Notes under the pieces: generated by a model
Told to the model about the DNA's origin: nothing
Database searches by the model: none
What the model saw: the letters and a program-made list of their open reading frames with translations, nothing else
Origin: Deltaproteobacteria bacterium
GTDB lineage: Bacteria > Desulfobacterota > Desulfobacteria > C00003060
Direction of reading: 5' to 3'
NCBI GenBank assembly: GCA_030667105.1
Contig: DAOUWN010000022.1
Span: forward strand, 1 to 12,920
Length of the DNA: 12,920 nt
Program-made: the position numbers and the translations under genes
Part shown: piece by piece, positions 182 to 10,987 of the stretch
Position numbering within the stretch: position 1 is the first letter of the stretch
Layout of the letters: the number at the start of each line of letters is the position of its first letter

Positions 182-209
182 TAAAGTTTTTATCCCTTCA
201 TACCGATAA
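182..209 (+). promoter_or_regulatory. FliA (sigma-28)-like promoter upstream of the c-di-GMP riboswitch
   Basis: TAAAGTTT at 182-189 matches the enterobacterial sigma-28 -35 consensus at 8 of 8 positions. ACCGATAA at 202-209 matches the -10 consensus GCCGATAA at 7 of 8. The spacer is 12 nt, one longer than the classical 11, which is the main weakness. Transcription would start near 216, only about 15-20 nt before the aptamer, so the leader would consist of little more than the riboswitch. This placement supports the call. If correct, the downstream gene belongs to a flagellar class-3-like regulon. The identification is by eye and no transcription start data are available. Confidence 0.6.
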
Positions 210-231
210 GAGACACAGAAAAAAACAGTGG

Positions 232-304
232 AACAAAGGCAAACCTCTCGAAAGAGTGGGACGCAAAGCCTCCGGTCCGCCCAGGCGGATAGCGGGGTTG
301 CCCT
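232..304 (+). ncRNA. Cyclic-di-GMP-I (GEMM-I) riboswitch aptamer
   Basis: The segment follows the Vibrio cholerae Vc2 c-di-GMP-I aptamer almost base for base in its conserved core. It has GGCAAACC (238-245), a GAAA tetraloop at 250-253 closing the P2 helix, GGGACGCAAAGCCTCCGG (258-275) with the ligand-stacking A, a GC-rich P3 hairpin closed around 276-289, and TAGCGGGGTTGCC (290-302). By alignment, the ligand-contacting Vc2 G20 is G238 and C92 is C301. G at position 20 fits c-di-GMP selectivity; the Geobacter-type cGAMP variants carry A there. A terminator and a gene follow at once, so this is a complete expression platform. GCCCT at 300-304 can alternatively pair with AGGGC at 326-330, which touches the terminator base. 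Whether the ligand turns expression on or off cannot be settled by eye. Confidence 0.95.
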
Positions 305-328
305 ACTGACAAGAATTTCGACATCAGG

Positions 329-366
329 GCCCATTCTTTCGTGAAAGAGAATGGGCTTTTTCTTTT
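329..366 (+). terminator. Intrinsic terminator of the c-di-GMP riboswitch
   Basis: GCCCATTC (329-336) pairs perfectly with GAATGGGC (349-356) around a loop that can pair partly further. A T-rich run, TTTTTCTTTT (357-366), follows. The hairpin sits between the aptamer and the Shine-Dalgarno sequence of the next gene, so it acts as a conditional attenuator rather than the end of a gene. Its first two stem bases, 329-330, overlap a competing helix formed with the 3' strand of the aptamer (300-304 with 326-330), a possible route for ligand control. Confidence 0.85.
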
Positions 367-377
367 GGAGGGATCCT

Positions 378-728
378 ATGAACATAACCGATACCTCCGA
401 TCATGTTCGGCAGCAGCAGGCTGGGCAATTCAGGAGACCAGGTGACGGTCAGGAACCGTTTATTTATGTGAACGACCAGAGACTGGAAAGCGCGAAGGAT
501 CAGAAAACGCGTTCTGTTTTTGTGAACAACGAAAGCGTTGTCAGCTTTGAAAGAGGGATTCTGGAATCTGATTTCCCAAAGATATTTGATTCTGATGCCG
601 GGATGAAATTCAACGCTGAGGAAATTCGTGAGACCGAGAAAGAGGAAAAACGCCAGGAAGAATATGACAAAGACGGAAAGCCGCAAACCGTGACGAGTCA
701 AAAGAACATCGTTGATCAATGGGCCTAA
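378..728 (+). CDS. Riboswitch-controlled small protein of unknown family
   Basis: This encodes 116 residues that I do not recognise. The ATG at 378 is preceded by GGAGG (367-371) with 6 nt spacing. An in-frame ATG at 351 lies inside the 3' arm of the terminator hairpin and is not a credible start. The product is hydrophilic and charged, with no signal peptide or membrane segment. Its N-terminus is rich in Gln and Arg, and a highly charged, probably helical Glu/Lys/Arg stretch covers roughly residues 75-98. No cysteine is present. It is the only gene between the FliA-like promoter, the c-di-GMP aptamer and a convergent gene that ends 31 nt away, so it appears monocistronic. Its control suggests a role in the motile-to-sessile switch or in flagellar or pilus function, but that is inference from regulation alone. 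Confidence 0.8.
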   Translation: MNITDTSDHVRQQQAGQFRRPGDGQEPFIYVNDQRLESAKDQKTRSVFVNNESVVSFERGILESDFPKIFDSDAGMKFNAEEIRETEKEEKRQEEYDKDGKPQTVTSQKNIVDQWA

Positions 729-759: not shown

Positions 760-1500
760 TCAATGGCGTAACACTTCCTCTATTTTGCCTATTAAAACAT
801 CCGACTCAACAGGCTTTTCAATAAAACCTGCGATTTCATGGAACTGTAAACTCTGGTCATCCTTCATGCCATGATAGGCCGAGCAGACAATAATAGGAAG
901 ATCTTCGTACTTTTCTCTGATCCTTGCGACTAACTCTATTCCATGCACTTCTGGCATCTTCATGTCTGTGACCACCAGGTTTATTGATTCCTCGTCTAAT
1001 ATTTCCAATGCCTTTTCTGCGCTTGGAGCGGTAAGAACCCGCCACGGACTCTTCCGCAAGATCCTTGTATACGCACTCAAGACATTCGGCTCATCATCTA
1101 CAAACAGAATGCTCTTTGCGGGTCCTTCTTTTCTTCTCATTATATCTTCTACTATGTCCCCCAACCTTTCTTTTAAAACCAGGACATCGCCGGCAAGATA
1201 CACAGGCGCTTCTCCGGGCAGTGGCTGAAAATCATTTTCCACGGAAATGTCACGTGAGTAAAGAATAACGGGCAGATCAGGATAGTCACGTGTAAATCCG
1301 ATGAACAGATCAAGCCACGTCCATTGGGACATGCTTGGTTCCAGCAGCAATATGTCCAACTCGTTTTCGCTGAGTCGCAAAGCGTCCGTATCAGCGACAA
1401 ATATGGCATCATAGTCCGCGCTTCGCAATGTATGTTCAATCAGTCCGCCTTCATACCCGCTTTCAACAAACATGTGAAAAACAATCCTTGGCTTTTCCAT
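760..1500 (-). CDS. Response regulator: degenerate receiver followed by an intact receiver
   Basis: The protein has 246 residues. Residues 130-246 form a complete CheY-like receiver: acidic pair D135/D136, phospho-acceptor D179 in the TDMKMPE motif, S207 in the switch position and K229-P230. Residues 1-120 look like a second receiver fold that has lost its active site. The strand expected to end in the phospho-Asp reads LDILLLEPSM, with Glu (E54) in that position, and there is no acidic pair near the N-terminus. No output domain follows, so it should work by protein contact, as in CheY- or FrzZ-like proteins. The ATG at 1500 is preceded by GAGGTAA at good spacing. It is the last gene of the minus-strand series, 91 nt after the ATPase gene, and ends 31 nt from the convergent small gene. 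Confidence 0.88.
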   Translation of the reverse strand: MEKPRIVFHMFVESGYEGGLIEHTLRSADYDAIFVADTDALRLSENELDILLLEPSMSQWTWLDLFIGFTRDYPDLPVILYSRDISVENDFQPLPGEAPVYLAGDVLVLKERLGDIVEDIMRRKEGPAKSILFVDDEPNVLSAYTRILRKSPWRVLTAPSAEKALEILDEESINLVVTDMKMPEVHGIELVARIREKYEDLPIIVCSAYHGMKDDQSLQFHEIAGFIEKPVESDVLIGKIEEVLRH

Positions 1501-1591
1501 ACGTTACCTCACAATATCGCATTGATAGAATTTGGTTTTGAGGCTTGCCAGCCCAAGACCTGTCTGTTTGCCAAATGGAGAGAACCAATGA
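1501..1591. other. Intergenic gap with ATTGGTCATTAGTCATTGG repeat
   Basis: This is the longest gap in the minus-strand series. Its right edge, overlapping the ATPase stop codon (about 1583-1610), carries a short direct repeat. Read on the minus strand it is TTGGTCATTAGTCATTGG. The TAG stop of the ATPase gene lies within the repeat, so the repeat supplies the last residues. I see no convincing terminator. A separate promoter for the downstream receiver gene cannot be excluded, but none is evident. Confidence 0.4.
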
Positions 1592-4003
1592 CTAATGACC
1601 AATGGCCACTTTCTCCCCACAGTAAGGACAAGCATTCCAGTTTGACGTCAGGAACTTGCCGCAACCCCCACAGCGTGGGACAATTGTGCCTCCGCAAAAG
1701 GGACAGAATTGAAAGCGTTCTCTTAAGGATACACCACATTGCGGACATGGAATTCTCACGGTGGATTGCGGCCCCAGAACCCTCACGACCTCCTCGCAGG
1801 ATGTGCTGCCTGCTCTGATTTTGTCCAGGGCATCCTCTAGAAGAGTCCTCATCCCTGCCAACCGGGCCGCTTGAACCAACTCTGCTTCGGTGGCATCTCT
1901 GTGGATCATCTTTTTGAGTTCCCCATCAATTTGGAACACTTCGAAGACCCCTGTGCGCCCCTTGTACCCGGTCTGACCGCACCGGTCACATCCGGCTCCT
2001 TTTTGAGGTGTGAAGTCCAGGCTTCCAGGTTCCAGCCCAAGGGCCTGCAAAAGCTCGTCAGGTGGATTGTCGTCCATCCTACACTCCGGACAGATGGTAC
2101 GCACCAGCCGTTGGGCCAGGATGCCGATTAGTGCTTCGCTAATTACGTAAGGTTTCACCCCCATGTCCCTCAGGCGAACAATGGAAGCCGCGGCGCTGTT
2201 CGTATGCAAGGTACTCAAAACCAGGTGCCCTGTCATGGCTGCGTGAAAGGTTACCTCAGCGGTTTCAAGATCTCTGATTTCGCCAAGCATGATCACATTC
2301 GGATCTTGCCGCAAAAGAGCTCTTAAAACCACAGGGAAACTGAGACCGATCTTTTCCCGGATGTGTACCTGCCCAGCCATGCTCATGTAATACTCAACCG
2401 GATCTTCAATCGTTGTATAGTTCTTTGTAGTGGTAGCGTCTTTGCGCAACAGGGAGTAGAGTGTTGTGGTTTTGCCACTCCCGGTAGGCCCCGTGCTCAG
2501 CAGAATCCCCTGAGGTTGGGCTGTCAATTGAGAAATTCTTGAAAGGTCTTCATCCGAAAGACCCAGTGCTGAGACATCCTTAATGGACGAGTTTCGGTCG
2601 AGTATTCTCAGCACCACCTTCTCTCCGTTGATTGTGGGAAGGGTGGAAATGCGCATGTCTACCATTCTCGATGACGTCTTTACGGTAACACGGCCGTCCT
2701 GGGGTCTTCGCCTTTCAGCAATATCCAACTCACTCATCACTTTAATTCGGGAGACAATGGAGGTCGCCATCATAAGAGGTATGTGAATCTTGTCATGGAG
2801 GATATCGTCTATGCGGTAACGGACCATTACGTATTTCGTCTTTGGCTCAATGTGCACATCGGAAGCCCCATGGCGCAAGGCATCGGAGATAATAGCATTG
2901 ACCATCCGGATGGCGGGCGGCTGATCCTTAGCCCTGAGCAGCTCTTCAAGATCTGTTTCTTCATCCTCTTCGTCCAAGAGAATCTCTATAGTCTCGGTGG
3001 GATCAGACAAGTCGAATTCGGAGAGGGCATCTCCAACCGCGTCGTCACCGTAGACTTCTTGTAGTTTGTCGATGATTTCCTTTTGCGACGACAAAACAGC
3101 TTGGACTGGCAGCCCCGCAAGAAACCTCAAATCATCCACCTTCGTGAAATCGGTGGGATCGGCCATGGCTACGATGAGTCGCCCATTGTCTTGTTTGAGG
3201 GGTATGAGCAGATTCTTCTCACAGATGTCCTTGGGGATGAGGGATGCCAATGCATTCGGGACTGCAAACTCGTTCGGATAAACCCGATTGATTCCGAGTT
3301 CTGACTGAATCGTCTTCATAAGTGTTGCTTCCTTCACTAGCCCCATCTCTATTAGTATGATGGGAAAAATCTTGTTGCTTTTGGCCTGCAAGGCTAAGGC
3401 CTTATCGAGATCCTCCTTCTCGATCAGGTTTCTGCGCAACAAGAGACGGCCCACCTGGCTCCGGTTCACATTAACAAAGCGGCTCAGTTGTTTAATCTTC
3501 TGAGCTTGTGCCTTTTTCTGCTTTTTTAGAGCCTTATTTTCCTGGATCAGATCATATTGCTCCAGCGCAAGGCTCACCGTAAGACGCAGGTCTTCGTCGT
3601 TCCACGGCTTGGTAATGAATTTGTAGACAGCCCCTTCGTTGACGGCTCCCATGATGGCGTTAACATCGGCATGTCCGGTCAACATGATCCTGATAGTCTG
3701 GGGATACAGTGCCTTGATCTTCCGCAACAGATCTGCCCCGGTCATCCCAGGCATCTGATGGTCTGATATCACAACATGAACCGGCTCCTTTTGGAGGAGT
3801 TCCAGCGCCTCTACCCCTGAATTTGCAGTCAATAACGTATAGTTTTCCCGCCTGAAAATGCGGCACATGGCCTTCAACACATTTTCTTCGTCATCGACAA
3901 ACAGGATCTTATATGTGGTTTTGTGCCCTTCAGCCCCTTTTGAATCGGCTTCTTGTTCTGGTCTCTCTTCTTTTCCAACGAAGAGTGAAGCTAATCCGGA
4001 CAT
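1592..4003 (-). CDS. Receiver-MshEN-GspE/PilB-family ATPase with C-terminal double zinc ribbon
   Basis: The protein has 803 residues. Residues 31-150 are a receiver (D37/D38, D81, T109, K132), followed by a Lys/Gln-rich coiled coil to about 178. Residues 183-320 are a GspE N-domain/MshEN-like module. Residues 355-735 are the secretion/pilus motor ATPase: Walker A GPTGSGKTT (505-513), Asp box around D534, Walker B VIMLGEIRD (570-578), His box TGHLVLSTLH (591-600), and the C638/C641 plus C672/C675 metal site typical of GspE/PilB. Residues 753-795 add four more CxxC pairs (753/756, 767/770, 778/781, 792/795), a double zinc ribbon that GspE/PilB proteins normally lack. Such ATPases power type IV pilus or type II secretion assembly at the inner membrane. 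Here phosphorylation would gate the motor or its localisation. The start has AAAGGAG at good spacing and overlaps the preceding kinase gene by 13 nt. No pilin or secretin gene is in view. Confidence 0.92.
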   Translation of the reverse strand: MSGLASLFVGKEERPEQEADSKGAEGHKTTYKILFVDDEENVLKAMCRIFRRENYTLLTANSGVEALELLQKEPVHVVISDHQMPGMTGADLLRKIKALYPQTIRIMLTGHADVNAIMGAVNEGAVYKFITKPWNDEDLRLTVSLALEQYDLIQENKALKKQKKAQAQKIKQLSRFVNVNRSQVGRLLLRRNLIEKEDLDKALALQAKSNKIFPIILIEMGLVKEATLMKTIQSELGINRVYPNEFAVPNALASLIPKDICEKNLLIPLKQDNGRLIVAMADPTDFTKVDDLRFLAGLPVQAVLSSQKEIIDKLQEVYGDDAVGDALSEFDLSDPTETIEILLDEEDEETDLEELLRAKDQPPAIRMVNAIISDALRHGASDVHIEPKTKYVMVRYRIDDILHDKIHIPLMMATSIVSRIKVMSELDIAERRRPQDGRVTVKTSSRMVDMRISTLPTINGEKVVLRILDRNSSIKDVSALGLSDEDLSRISQLTAQPQGILLSTGPTGSGKTTTLYSLLRKDATTTKNYTTIEDPVEYYMSMAGQVHIREKIGLSFPVVLRALLRQDPNVIMLGEIRDLETAEVTFHAAMTGHLVLSTLHTNSAAASIVRLRDMGVKPYVISEALIGILAQRLVRTICPECRMDDNPPDELLQALGLEPGSLDFTPQKGAGCDRCGQTGYKGRTGVFEVFQIDGELKKMIHRDATEAELVQAARLAGMRTLLEDALDKIRAGSTSCEEVVRVLGPQSTVRIPCPQCGVSLRERFQFCPFCGGTIVPRCGGCGKFLTSNWNACPYCGEKVAIGH

Positions 4004-5493
4004 GGCACTCCTTTGTTCTTGAATGGTATTCGTATTGTAAATGTGGTCCCAACACCCACCGTGCTCTCTACATCAACGGAGCCATGGTGCTTTTCAATGA
4101 TGTTATAAACAACGTTGAGGCCAAGGCCCGTTCCTTGCCCTACCTCCTTAGTAGTAAAAAACGGATCAAAGATGCTTGAAACGTCTTCTTCGGGAATTCC
4201 CAGTCCAGTATCACTGATTGCAATCTCCACGTAGCCGTCAACCGCCCTTGTCGCAATCCTGATCTCACCTTGTTTTTCAATAGCTTGGGCAGCATTGACC
4301 AGAAGGTTCATGAAGACCTGATTGAGCTGCTGCGGATAGCACTCCACTTCAGGAAGCTCGCCGTAATCCTTCGTAACTTCGGCCTTGTACTTGAGTTCGT
4401 TCCACACAACATTCAGGGTCGAATCAAGACCTTGATTGATATCCGCATATTTCAGCTCCTGCTCGCCAGGATGGGCAAAATCCTTTAAGTCTATTACGAT
4501 CTTCTTGATACGTTCAGCCCCTTCCTGGGACTCTCTAATCAAATTCGGTGTGTCCTCTGTGATAAAATCGATATCTGCCTCCTCTTCAAGCGCCCTTATA
4601 CGGTCTAATCTCTCTGAGACGCCACCCCTGACTTCTCTCGTGATCGGAGCCTCCTTTAGCCATGAAACGAGGGCTCTATATTGTTCAATCAATGGCAGCA
4701 TATGAGCTACATACTCATCTACGGCAGTTAAATTACTACTGATGAATCCCATTGGATTGTTGATCTCGTGGGCCACACCAGCAGCCAAATGTCCTATGGA
4801 AGCCATCTTTTCCTGCTGCATGAGCCGGGCCTCTGACTCTTTTATCTCCCGGGTCTTCTTCTTCACCTCGATTTCAAGACTTTCGGCCAGGAGCCGGTAC
4901 TTCTCTTCTGATTTTTCCAATAGAGCGGCCTTTTCCTTGAGCTGGGCATATGATTCCTCAACCACCTGCCCGTGAAGCCCTGAGGTCAAAAGATTCCTGT
5001 ACCTATAGATTATAAGATGGCTCAAGACCTTCCCCAGGAGACGTCCCAACAGCTCCGGGAAAGACGTTGACCCATCCCCTTCTTTCTCATATCCAAGGAC
5101 TAGATAGCCTATGATCTCAAGTTCGTGCGTGATGGGAAAGATCGTTATCCTGCCCCGTGGCGACCTGAAGGTCTTAGGGGAGTCAATCCTTTCTCGGTGC
5201 AAGAGTCTGCTGATAGAGGCCGCCTCATCAGGGGCCAGGGGTCCTTTGGTATAGTACGGAGTGCCGTCCGGAAAGAGCACCAAGACAGAACCTGGGCCAG
5301 CCGCTTGTATCTCTGTGATCAAATCTTCAAGCACAGAGGTTTCGAGGAGGTCTCCGATCCCGTATTCTCGGTCAAAATCATCAAACTCAATTCCCATAGC
5401 TTGTGAAGCACCATTTGTACTATTTTGCCCGCGTTTTCTGTTACTTGTCATTTGTGATTCACCCATAAGTAATGCCAGGTGACCAGTGACCAC
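3991..5493 (-). CDS. Soluble sensor histidine kinase with N-terminal sensory domain
   Basis: This encodes up to 500 residues with no membrane segment. Residues 45-165 are a globular alpha/beta domain of unidentified type. The stretch around 55-84, with a hydrophobic strand then [11 protein letters not shown], resembles Roadblock/LC7 or GAF-like folds, but only weakly. A coiled coil covers about 175-230. The kinase core follows: H-box GVAHEINNP with H242, a long dimerisation insert to about 330, N-box around N396-N400, G1 DTGLGIP (428-434), F-box FDPFFTTK (442-449) and G2 GTGLGL (454-459). There is no receiver. Residues 230-490 align without gaps to 140-400 of the kinase at 6170-7378, about 77% identical over the last 100. 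The start is uncertain: GTG at 5493, ATG at 5466 or ATG at 5451 are all in frame and none has a strong Shine-Dalgarno. Confidence 0.9.
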
Positions 5494-5518
5494 CTTATCC
5501 GGGATCCCTTATCCGGGA
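5493..5518. repeat. 12-bp direct repeat at the GTPase/kinase junction
   Basis: CCTTATCCGGGA occurs at 5493-5504 and again at 5507-5518, a 14-nt period. On the minus strand the first-read copy contains the TAA stop of the GTPase gene. The second lies just before the possible GTG start of the kinase and places AAGG close to it. It looks like a small tandem duplication at the gene boundary, which may explain the unclear kinase start. Confidence 0.7.
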
Positions 5519-6153
5519 ATCATGCCCAGAAAATCCTCCTGACTAACTAAATACAGTTTCTTCAATCCATGGACACTATCCAGACTTTGATAGGTTTGCT
5601 CCAATATTGCCTCAAAGGTTTCTTTGACGCCCTCACCATATATGGCTGAGGCGAAGGTAATCGGAAGCCCTGTCGGCTGCCATCGCTCCAACACCTCTTC
5701 TTCGCTGATGATATCTTTTAGATCTCGTTTGTTGAACTGTATTACCAACGGAAGATTCTCAAAATCAAGTCCCACGCGAGCGATATTTTTTTCCAGGTTG
5801 TCAAAGCTTTCAAAATTGCTCATTGATTGGCTTATCTGAGAATCGGCCACAAATACTACCGCATCTGCCCTGGACAAAACTGCCTTGCGTGTAGCATCGT
5901 GGGCTACCTGGCCAGGAACGGTGAAGAGTTTTATCTTGATTCTGAAGTCGCTTTCCGATTTCACCATCAACGGTAGAAGATCAAAAAAGAGGGTCCTGTC
6001 TCCCTTGGTCTCAAAGGTCATCAGTTCGCCACACTTGGACGGATTCAGGATGTCATGAAGTTGCATAAGATTGGTTGTCTTCCCGCTCAATGCGGGCCCG
6101 TAGTAGACGACCTTGGCGACTATTTTTTTTTGTCTCTCATCAAGTTCAGCCAT
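5509..6153 (-). CDS. MglA-like small Ras-superfamily GTPase
   Basis: The protein has 214 residues. MglA-type GTPases mark the leading pole and switch polarity of gliding and twitching machinery in Myxococcus. The P-loop GPALSGKT is at 19-26. The D52-R53-T54 segment, the TVPGQ motif (78-82, with Thr in place of the usual Asp of DxxG) and the NKRD base-specificity motif (141-144) fall at the numbers I recall for Myxococcus MglA, including the Arg finger R53, T78 and Q82. SA at 169-170 fits the G5 loop. A C-terminal tail of about 20 residues extends past the usual 195. No MglB (Roadblock) gene is in the window. The gene lies between two sister kinases, 15-16 nt from each. AGAGGTAAG precedes the ATG. 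GTP-bound output could recruit the ATPase encoded two genes downstream, but that is inference. Confidence 0.92.
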   Translation of the reverse strand: MAELDERQKKIVAKVVYYGPALSGKTTNLMQLHDILNPSKCGELMTFETKGDRTLFFDLLPLMVKSESDFRIKIKLFTVPGQVAHDATRKAVLSRADAVVFVADSQISQSMSNFESFDNLEKNIARVGLDFENLPLVIQFNKRDLKDIISEEEVLERWQPTGLPITFASAIYGEGVKETFEAILEQTYQSLDSVHGLKKLYLVSQEDFLGMIPG

Positions 6154-6169
6154 CTTGGCTTACCTCTAA

Positions 6170-7378
6170 CTAACCGGTCGGTATTCTGATCGTAAACGTA
6201 GTCCCCTTGCCCACAGTGCTCTCCACATCGATCGTTCCTTTGTGCTTCTCAATGATGTTATAGGCGACATTTAATCCCAAACCCGTTCCCTTGCCTACAT
6301 CTTTGGTCGTAAAAAATGGGTCAAATAGTCTGGGGATGTTCTCTTCTGGGATTCCCATTCCCGTATCGCTTATTTTGACCTCCACCGACCCATCATAGCC
6401 CCTTGTTGAAACCTTGATCTCGCCCTGATCTTCCATGGCTTGTGCGGCATTGACCAGCAAATTCATGAAGACCTGGTTGAGCTGCTGGGGATAACATCTC
6501 ACGATAGGCAAATCTCCGTATTCTTTTGTCACCTTGGCCTTGTACTTAAGCTCGTTCCAGACGACATTCAGGGTTGATTCAATGCCTTTGTTGACATCGG
6601 TTTCTTGCACCTTGTCTTCTCCGGGCTGAGCAAAGTCCTTGAGGTCGATAACTATCTTCTTGATCCGCTCGGTTCCTTCTTTGCACTCGTCAATGAGATC
6701 CCCAATATCATTGAGGATGAAATCGACATCAACCTCCGCTTCAAGGCCCACAATACCCTCCACCTGCTCCGCTATGGAAGGAGGCAAGTCATCCTTGCTA
6801 ATCGTATCTTTCAGTTCCCTGATCAGCTTTCTGTACTCTTTTAGGAGTCCGCTTATGTCATCCTGATAATCAGAAAGTGTTTTCAGATTGCTGCTCACAA
6901 ACCCCGTTGGGTTGTTGATTTCGTGCGCCACACCAGCGGCAAGCTGGCCAACGGAGGCCATCTTTTCAGATTGAATGAGCTGCGCCTGTGCCCTCTTGTA
7001 TTCATCTTCTAACTCGATGATGCGTTCACCAGCGCGTATCCTGGCCTTTAACTCGTCAGGGTTAAAGGGTTTTACAATATAGTCGTCTACCCCCGCCTCA
7101 AACCCAGCGATAGCATCTTCCTTCCGATCTTTGGAAGTAAGTAGAATCATGAATACATAATGAGGCAGTTTTGCCTCTCGCACTTTCTGGCATAGCTCCA
7201 GCCCATCCATCTCCGGCATGGCCCAGTCCGTTATCACCATTCTCACTTTGCCTTGCTGGATTACTTCCAACGCGTTCAGGCCGTCTGCAGCAAGAACGCA
7301 TTCATGGCCCAGACTCTTAAGCAGTTTTTCCAGAAACCCCCTGGCCACAAAATCATCTTCTGCAACTAGAATTTCCAT
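6170..7378 (-). CDS. Receiver-histidine kinase (N-terminal receiver, reverse hybrid)
   Basis: The protein has 402 residues and is soluble. Residues 1-120 are an intact receiver: E7/D8/D9, D51 in [12 protein letters not shown]81 and K103-P104. A short helix leads to a kinase core with H152 (GVAHEINNP), N-box N306-N310, G1 DTGMGIP (338-344), F-box FDPFFTTK (352-359) and G2 GTGLGL (364-369). The receiver precedes the kinase, so it probably receives phosphate from an upstream donor and then tunes kinase activity. The HPt domain of the hybrid kinase encoded immediately upstream is the obvious candidate. The kinase half is a close paralogue of the kinase at 3991-5493, including the same roughly 80-residue insert between H-box and N-box. 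The ATG at 7378 is preceded by AGAGG, 27 nt after the hybrid kinase gene. Confidence 0.93.

Positions 7379-7405: not shown

Positions 7406-10987
<3,582 letters not shown>

Follow-up and report, generated by a model that had tools for sequence, protein, structure and literature searches.

Our analysis points to a two-input transcription gate controlling a 116-aa protein gene of an unnamed family, a gene whose expression would require active FliA together with low c-di-GMP. We consider this reading reasonably probable, together with the reuse of the same module in a clade of relatives and a probable role of the protein as an exported component or as part of the FlgM circuit. The gene lies in a 12,920-bp stretch of DNA, called here the window, whose relevant features are as follows.

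182-209, + strand: sigma-28 (FliA)-type promoter, TAAAGTTT at 182-189 and CCGATAA at 203-209
226-308, + strand: GEMM-I c-di-GMP aptamer including P1 (226-231 with 303-308, from the predicted fold)
250-260, + strand: P2 3' strand GAAAGAGUGGG, proposed antiterminator partner of the terminator 5' arm (from truncated-transcript folds)
326-365, + strand: intrinsic terminator, hairpin 326-359 followed by the U-rich tract TTCTTTT
330-340, + strand: terminator 5' arm CCCAUUCUUUC
367-372, + strand: ribosome binding site GGAGGG, read from the sequence
378-728, + strand: gene of the 116-aa protein, unnamed family (ATG 378-380, stop ending at 728)

According to the proposed mechanism, FliA-RNA polymerase would start at 182-209, so that leader synthesis depends on free FliA, and the nascent leader would fold into the GEMM-I aptamer. 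With c-di-GMP bound, the aptamer would hold P2 and P3 and leave the terminator 5' arm free; the 326-365 terminator would then form and transcription would stop. Without c-di-GMP, the arm at 330-340 would invade the P2 3' strand at 250-260, termination would be delayed or avoided and the 116-aa protein gene would be expressed. The same module recurs before many genes in the clade of relatives.

The promoter-leader-gene unit in the window and at homologous loci

The first-pass annotation had read a sigma-28-like promoter directly before the aptamer and a terminator after it, and both are present. The promoter, written as TAAAGTTT-N12-ACCGATAA (182-209, +), scores 11/11 on the TAAA-N16/17-CCGATAA scale and is the only place scoring at least 10 on either strand of the window. 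This match suggests dependence on FliA, with transcription expected to start near 216. Promoter scans used a sigma-28 and a sigma-70 scale, sigma-28 matches being looked for up to 75 nt upstream of GEMM-I leaders. As a positive control, 220-nt windows at flagellin genes were scanned: among the best 5 of 12 places, three scored at least 10 and two scored 8, the chance rate for 200-nt windows being 2.5% at a score of at least 10.

Homologous loci were compared in nine genomes picked because they hold the family (G001-G005, G060, G454, G538 and G637). Scanning the contigs of genomes with the single 116-aa sequence found nothing, and scanning with the family alignment found 5 loci. The family is rare: of 395 genomes sampled from the phylum to which G005 belongs 2 have it, as do 4/194 and 8/291 genomes of two overlapping order-level draws and 1/5 genomes of one family. 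As the first-pass annotation had proposed, the protein was searched by profile and its homologues were inspected for a shared leader: aptamer and promoter stay with the gene in all nine genomes, the GEMM-I aptamer on the same strand before the gene and the sigma-28-like promoter scoring 9-11. Scripted scanning recovered a terminator at 8/9 loci; the ninth, in G060, shows by eye a hairpin and a short T-run that fall below the threshold. Between leader and family gene, G002, G003 and G004 have a second ORF of 98 aa. Of the relatives seen, G538 is the closest (95.4% identity with the window across 181-1485). Each of the nine genomes encodes a FliA that passes the NCBIfam cut-off.

Terminator geometry and the sign of the switch

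The terminator hairpin (326-359, -18.1 kcal/mol) starts 19 nt past the aptamer model and makes no use of the aptamer 3' strand. A consensus terminator scan was weak by itself, returning 2 sites in the window against a shuffle mean of 1.9. Because of the 19-nt gap, the bound aptamer and the terminator can coexist. In the predicted fold of RNA 216-362 the aptamer helices and the terminator form together, which counts against the proposed mechanism in that control would have to be kinetic. In the accessible text of PMC9262584, aptamer and terminator coexist in the C. difficile OFF switch Cd1 and are mutually exclusive in the Geobacter ON switch pilM. By this analogy the window leader would be of the OFF type. 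Like the window leader, Cd1 has a GEMM-I aptamer before motility genes (the flagellar operon) that can coexist, when bound, with its terminator, c-di-GMP being its OFF signal; it differs in that its antiterminator takes the ligand-pairing C87, whereas the proposed strand in the window is mainly P2, and in that the window leader follows a FliA-type promoter immediately and belongs to a type found before many genes (PMC9262584, as far as its accessible text describes Cd1).

Truncated transcripts were folded to follow the terminator 5' arm. For window transcripts ending at 341, 345 and 350, in which this arm is made and the 3' arm is absent or incomplete, the minimum-energy fold pairs 330-340 with 250-260 and P2 is broken. 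Transcripts ending at 356 and 362 regain both aptamer and terminator; at 375 the terminator is kept and the P2 segment pairs with downstream bases. Among 39 leaders treated in this way, the main partner of the arm lies within the first 42 nt of the aptamer in 28 and further along it in 9 (mean pairing at least 0.4 in both cases), and P2 keeps less than half of its pairing in 26 of 36 scorable leaders, a count that has no control set. Regarding duplex energy, 1% of the window arm's own shuffles pair equally well with the window aptamer, as do 12% of 50 other terminator arms, a few of which resemble leader terminators read on the other strand. Over the 39 leaders the arm-aptamer duplex averages -12.95 kcal/mol compared to -11.64 kcal/mol for controls, none of the 39 beats 95% of the control arms, and permuting the arms among leaders gave 64/5000 for the P2 half and 1724/5000 for the 3' part. 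An antiterminator is thus plausible from these models, at a level only modestly above controls.

To place the window among related leaders, 58 leaders (the window included, among the matches listed) were sorted by the base at the equivalent of Vc2 position 46, which a text pattern identified in all but 3 of the 58, and by the place of the terminator. Where a terminator was found, it lies apart from the aptamer in 36 of 37 C46 leaders, whereas 7 of 10 other leaders build it from the aptamer 3' strand (among the matches listed; Fisher p 1.4e-5, overstated since the leaders are related). The promoter follows the same division: sigma-28 scores of at least 9 occur before 38 of 44 C46 leaders and 1 of 11 G46 leaders (among the matches listed; p 2.6e-6, overstated since relatedness is ignored). 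Likewise, the terminator is separate in 32/34 sigma-28 leaders and in 7/13 others (among the matches listed; p 0.003, again ignoring relatedness and overstated). The two overlapping exceptions with a sigma-28 match are G002:C73, which has a weak, odd hairpin, and G001:C70:16631, before a cytochrome gene. By the Cd1/pilM rule most G46 leaders would be of the ON type. Separate terminators are not specific to this clade, because a wider sample outside it had 19 separate and 17 overlapping among 36 leaders with a terminator.

The same parts could also work with the opposite sign, c-di-GMP being an ON signal that prevents termination as at Geobacter pilM. Geobacter has known GEMM-I ON switches (PMC9262584, accessible text), and the genomes studied here themselves contain leaders that build the terminator from the aptamer 3' strand. 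We nevertheless find this unlikely for the window, whose terminator lies beyond the aptamer model and leaves that strand unused, and whose sigma-28 class counts 32 separate terminators against 2 overlapping ones among the matches listed.

The ligand of the aptamer

The covariance-model search proposed by the first-pass annotation places the aptamer at 229-306 (+), where RF03167 (c-di-GMP-I-GGC, clan CL00126) matches with 65.1 bits (E 8.3e-14) against a gathering threshold of 59. What had been called a consensus GEMM-I aptamer is therefore a real aptamer, its best Rfam model being c-di-GMP-I-GGC and not plain GEMM-I. RNA 216-362 also folds better than its shuffles (z -2.67, 1 of 200 equally good), and the window aptamer has a G239-C264 pair. 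We take G238, A265 and C301 to be the counterparts of Vc2 G20, A47 and C92, a numbering partly checked against residue lists; on this alignment they would be the ligand-contacting bases of the plain c-di-GMP class. A MIR529 match at 7985-8073 fell below its own cut-off and was discarded.

The ligand is likelier to be c-di-GMP than cGAMP, because the base that aligns with the specificity position is G238, compared to A14 listed for the Geobacter cGAMP aptamer (PMC6274999, PMC7288161, accessible text). That 3',3'-cGAMP is nonetheless the natural ligand has some appeal: Geobacter GEMM-I aptamers sense it (PMC6456294, accessible text), and the GGC variant appears in the accessible literature as a model name or template, with no ligand description found there. 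We judge it quite improbable, since the base placed at the specificity position is G and not A, on a partly provisional alignment of positions, and since 42 of the 58 leaders (window included, among the matches listed) read GGC with C46. The Geobacter GEMM-Ib cGAMP riboswitches of pilM and pgcA resemble the window leader in aptamer clan, in occurring in related bacteria, in being attenuators and in having cytochrome targets (PMC9262584, PMC6456294, accessible text). Unlike the window leader, that of pilM turns expression ON, includes an aptamer strand in its terminator and has A at the specificity base; in geometry the GEMM-Ib switches resemble the second leader type of the genomes studied here, not the window leader (same sources, with the same restriction).

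Reuse of the promoter-aptamer module

The first-pass annotation had described a motility sigma factor stacked with c-di-GMP attenuation on one small gene. The stacking is not special to this gene: the nine genomes have at least 57 GEMM-I matches, and 39 of 57 leaders (among the matches listed) have a sigma-28 score of at least 9, compared to 356 of 18,819 control windows (1.9%; 75 nt each, from the same genomes' DNA). Scores of at least 10 were reached by 27/57 leaders and 43/18,819 controls, and the full score of 11 by 10/57 leaders and by none of the 18,819 controls (leaders among the matches listed); on these controls a chance match of the window promoter was rejected. When the nine family loci are left out, 30 of 48 leaders (among the matches listed) still score at least 9. 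By contrast, sigma-70 scores of at least 9 were seen for 5/57 leaders (among the matches listed) versus 8.2% of controls. The module is not general across the phylum, since only 6 of 67 leaders from 53 other genomes score at least 9, with controls at 2.2%.

An exact composite pattern was found at 17 places in 14 of 395 genomes, versus 1 place in 1 of 395 with a scrambled -10. This pattern is partly noise, because GEMM-I was present at only 5 of the 13 loci scanned outside G005. Three loci from genomes other than the nine, L114, L115 and L116 (G049, G262 and G359), have a small gene preceded by a GEMM-I aptamer and an exact match of the sigma-28-like type; the small gene in L142, the same place as L114, looks Flp-type pilin-like by eye.

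Genes behind the leaders were identified by Pfam for 30 chosen ORFs. Score-11 leaders precede FliA genes in G003 (L080, G003:C117) and G004 (L101, G004:C221), a FliL gene, and a response regulator with TPR repeats whose ORF starts 492 nt away. Genes of rod-type FlgE/F/G proteins follow four leaders of score 9 and one of score 8, FliD genes follow one of score 9 and, for the G005 copy, one of score 8, an M23 peptidase gene follows one of score 9, and propeller protein genes follow leaders of scores 10 and 11. A fliA gene behind a promoter of its own type and a GEMM-I leader would possibly form a c-di-GMP-gated positive loop. The motility link drawn by the first-pass annotation is likely on this evidence: the sigma-28-like promoter and aptamer remain with the 116-aa gene at 9/9 loci, and the same pair stands before recognised flagellar genes. 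The protein might be an effector of the motile/sessile decision, as that annotation proposed.

Seven multihaem cytochrome genes were found, five of them behind leaders with scores of at least 9 and OFF geometry (L082, two in L094, L096 and L100), an arrangement that a plain motility regulon does not predict; the other two (L095, L108) follow leaders of ON geometry, one scoring 9 and one scoring 6. Several further ORFs among the 30 are orphans. Small orphan proteins occur behind the same kind of leader in L065, L073 and L088, in L068, L070 and L078, in L089 and in L099; some are alike by eye (MIEGIG..., MVNSINN...), and the L089 orphan is weakly FlgM-like (16.2 bits, below cut-off). Tandem GEMM-I aptamers before one gene were observed in L072 (G002:C320) and L090 (G538:C209).

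A precedent for a FliA regulon reaching beyond flagella together with a GEMM-containing RNA is the attack phase of Bdellovibrio, whose FliA promoters read TTAAG-N16-CCGATA and whose merRNA is a massively expressed GEMM-containing RNA (PMC3627812, accessible text). By analogy, the leader RNA itself could be the product, acting as a c-di-GMP sponge, and the protein would matter little. This is very unlikely here, since merRNA has no conserved ORF downstream and no FliA-promoter mark in Table 2 (PMC3627812, as far as its accessible text goes), whereas the present gene is kept behind its leader in 9/9 genomes. Least probable of all is a fortuitous promoter match with another sigma factor driving the 116-aa gene, for although 2 of 5 flagellin genes (best 5 of 12) are without a good sigma-28 match, the enrichment at the leaders of the nine genomes (among the matches listed), the near absence elsewhere in the phylum and the lack of any sigma-70 enrichment all speak against it.

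The 116-aa protein shares its N-terminus with a FlgM-like protein

The single 116-residue gene had been described as of unrecognised family, and it remains so, with no match in Pfam or NCBIfam, including the PF04316 FlgM domain. A single-sequence protein search yielded 9 homologues among 13 candidates, and a profile of ten sequences yielded 60 homologous clusters among 803 candidates. These clusters range from 88 to 207 aa, 45 of the 60 lying at 115-117 aa; the homologues with a named organism come from Deltaproteobacteria, Desulfobacterales, Thermodesulfobacteriota and 'Proteobacteria' MAGs. Q12, G16, F18, P27, F70 and D71 are invariant in the 55-row family alignment. The 207-aa proteins P0056 and P0059 consist of the family plus a second segment with a DRVEIS motif, and may represent two genes merged into a single reading frame. 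A PDB search with the family profile gave 3 matches (best E 0.21), none accepted as a relative. The AlphaFold model has a mean pLDDT of 52, which would suit a disordered protein without proving it; this single model was too poor for a structure search, and function from structure was set aside.

A link to FlgM comes from a second operon of G004. It opens with a sigma-28-like promoter scoring 10 and a GEMM-I aptamer, which are followed by a terminator, the gene of a 162-aa orphan and the gene of a 103-aa protein. In the 103-aa protein, residues 46-88 form a FlgM domain (39.8 bits, cut-off 25; 40.1 on the NCBIfam FlgM model, just below the cut-off of 40.75), and its residues 1-42 match the 116-aa family at 43.1 bits. 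Six clusters of this FlgM-like chimera were found. Compared as profiles, the 116-aa family and the chimera match with E 4.5e-19 and 99% probability over residues 1-42 only, versus 2.4% probability for the family and the canonical FlgM of these genomes (six aligned). The 116-aa protein has in common with FlgM (PF04316) its first 42 residues, as found in the divergent FlgM of a relative, its small size and its low-confidence structure, but the FlgM domain is missing from it and the clade's canonical FlgM does not match it. Canonical flgM was not seen under GEMM-I control: 0/10 flgM loci have the aptamer within the roughly 1.5 kb scanned on each side, or as much of it as the contig provides.

FlgM leaves the cell through the flagellar apparatus. 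The shared residues 1-42 may be an export signal, perhaps with an even chance. Because a divergent FlgM begins with the same segment, the 116-aa protein is probably a small, largely disordered protein that is exported by the flagellum or acts in the FlgM circuit.

Genes facing the unit

The 116-aa gene had been described as facing a cluster of polarity and pilus-type motor proteins. As a whole this arrangement is not conserved: in the closest relative, G538:C56 (L013, L084) jumps from window position 1485 to 6168, so that this place lacks the ATPase, the MglA-like GTPase and one of the kinases, which rules out a conserved link to the entire cluster. What recurs is the convergent response-regulator gene, which follows the 116-aa gene in the window, G538, L002 and L003. 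In L002 and L003 a receiver-domain gene at 8362-8730 (-) is convergent to the homologue; the L002 response regulator is 36% identical to that of the window over 70 residues, part of the receiver domain only. L001, from a Desulfobacterales MAG, instead has a GGDEF-domain gene at 8464-9042 (-; 139.5 bits) convergent to the homologue. No intact convergent response-regulator or GGDEF neighbour was seen by eye in the ORF lists of L004, L005, G060, G454 and G637.

Within the window, the gene at 1592-4003 (-) encodes a fusion of a response regulator, an MshEN domain and a zinc-ribbon type II/IV secretion ATPase. Since MshEN is described as a c-di-GMP receptor (PMC5013675, accessible text), c-di-GMP may also be sensed by the facing cluster. 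The two window kinases (3991-5493 and 6170-7378) are matched by the same G538 stretch, at 71% and 93%, and look like paralogues.

A possible FliA regulon wired to c-di-GMP

Both GEMM-I riboswitches and FliA promoters are familiar elements; their combination, its reuse in a group of relatives and the split into FliA-coupled OFF and uncoupled ON leaders look like a novel variation on them. Full-text searches of the accessible literature showed no FliA-GEMM regulon among the papers listed; subscription papers lay outside their reach, and this is no proof of novelty.

We propose, tentatively, that a Desulfobacterales-like clade couples its FliA regulon to c-di-GMP through RNA. OFF-type G21-C46 attenuators behind FliA promoters would control this regulon, in some members including fliA and a flgM-like gene, and an ON-geometry C21-G46 subtype without a FliA promoter would serve other genes, the 116-aa protein possibly being an exported, FlgM-derived part of the circuit. 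With leaders of opposed geometry in one genome, the way in which aptamer subtype and expression platform determine the sign of the response becomes directly testable.

If the proposed gate is correct, genes would be controlled by FliA activity and c-di-GMP on the same transcript, with a sigma factor gene (in 2 genomes) and an anti-sigma-like gene (in 1 genome) under the same gate, and the orphan 116-aa family would gain a testable role. If the wider proposal also holds, one messenger would switch one gene set off and another on via two aptamer subtypes and, with five of the seven annotated cytochromes on the FliA/OFF side, the regulon would join swimming to electron transfer.
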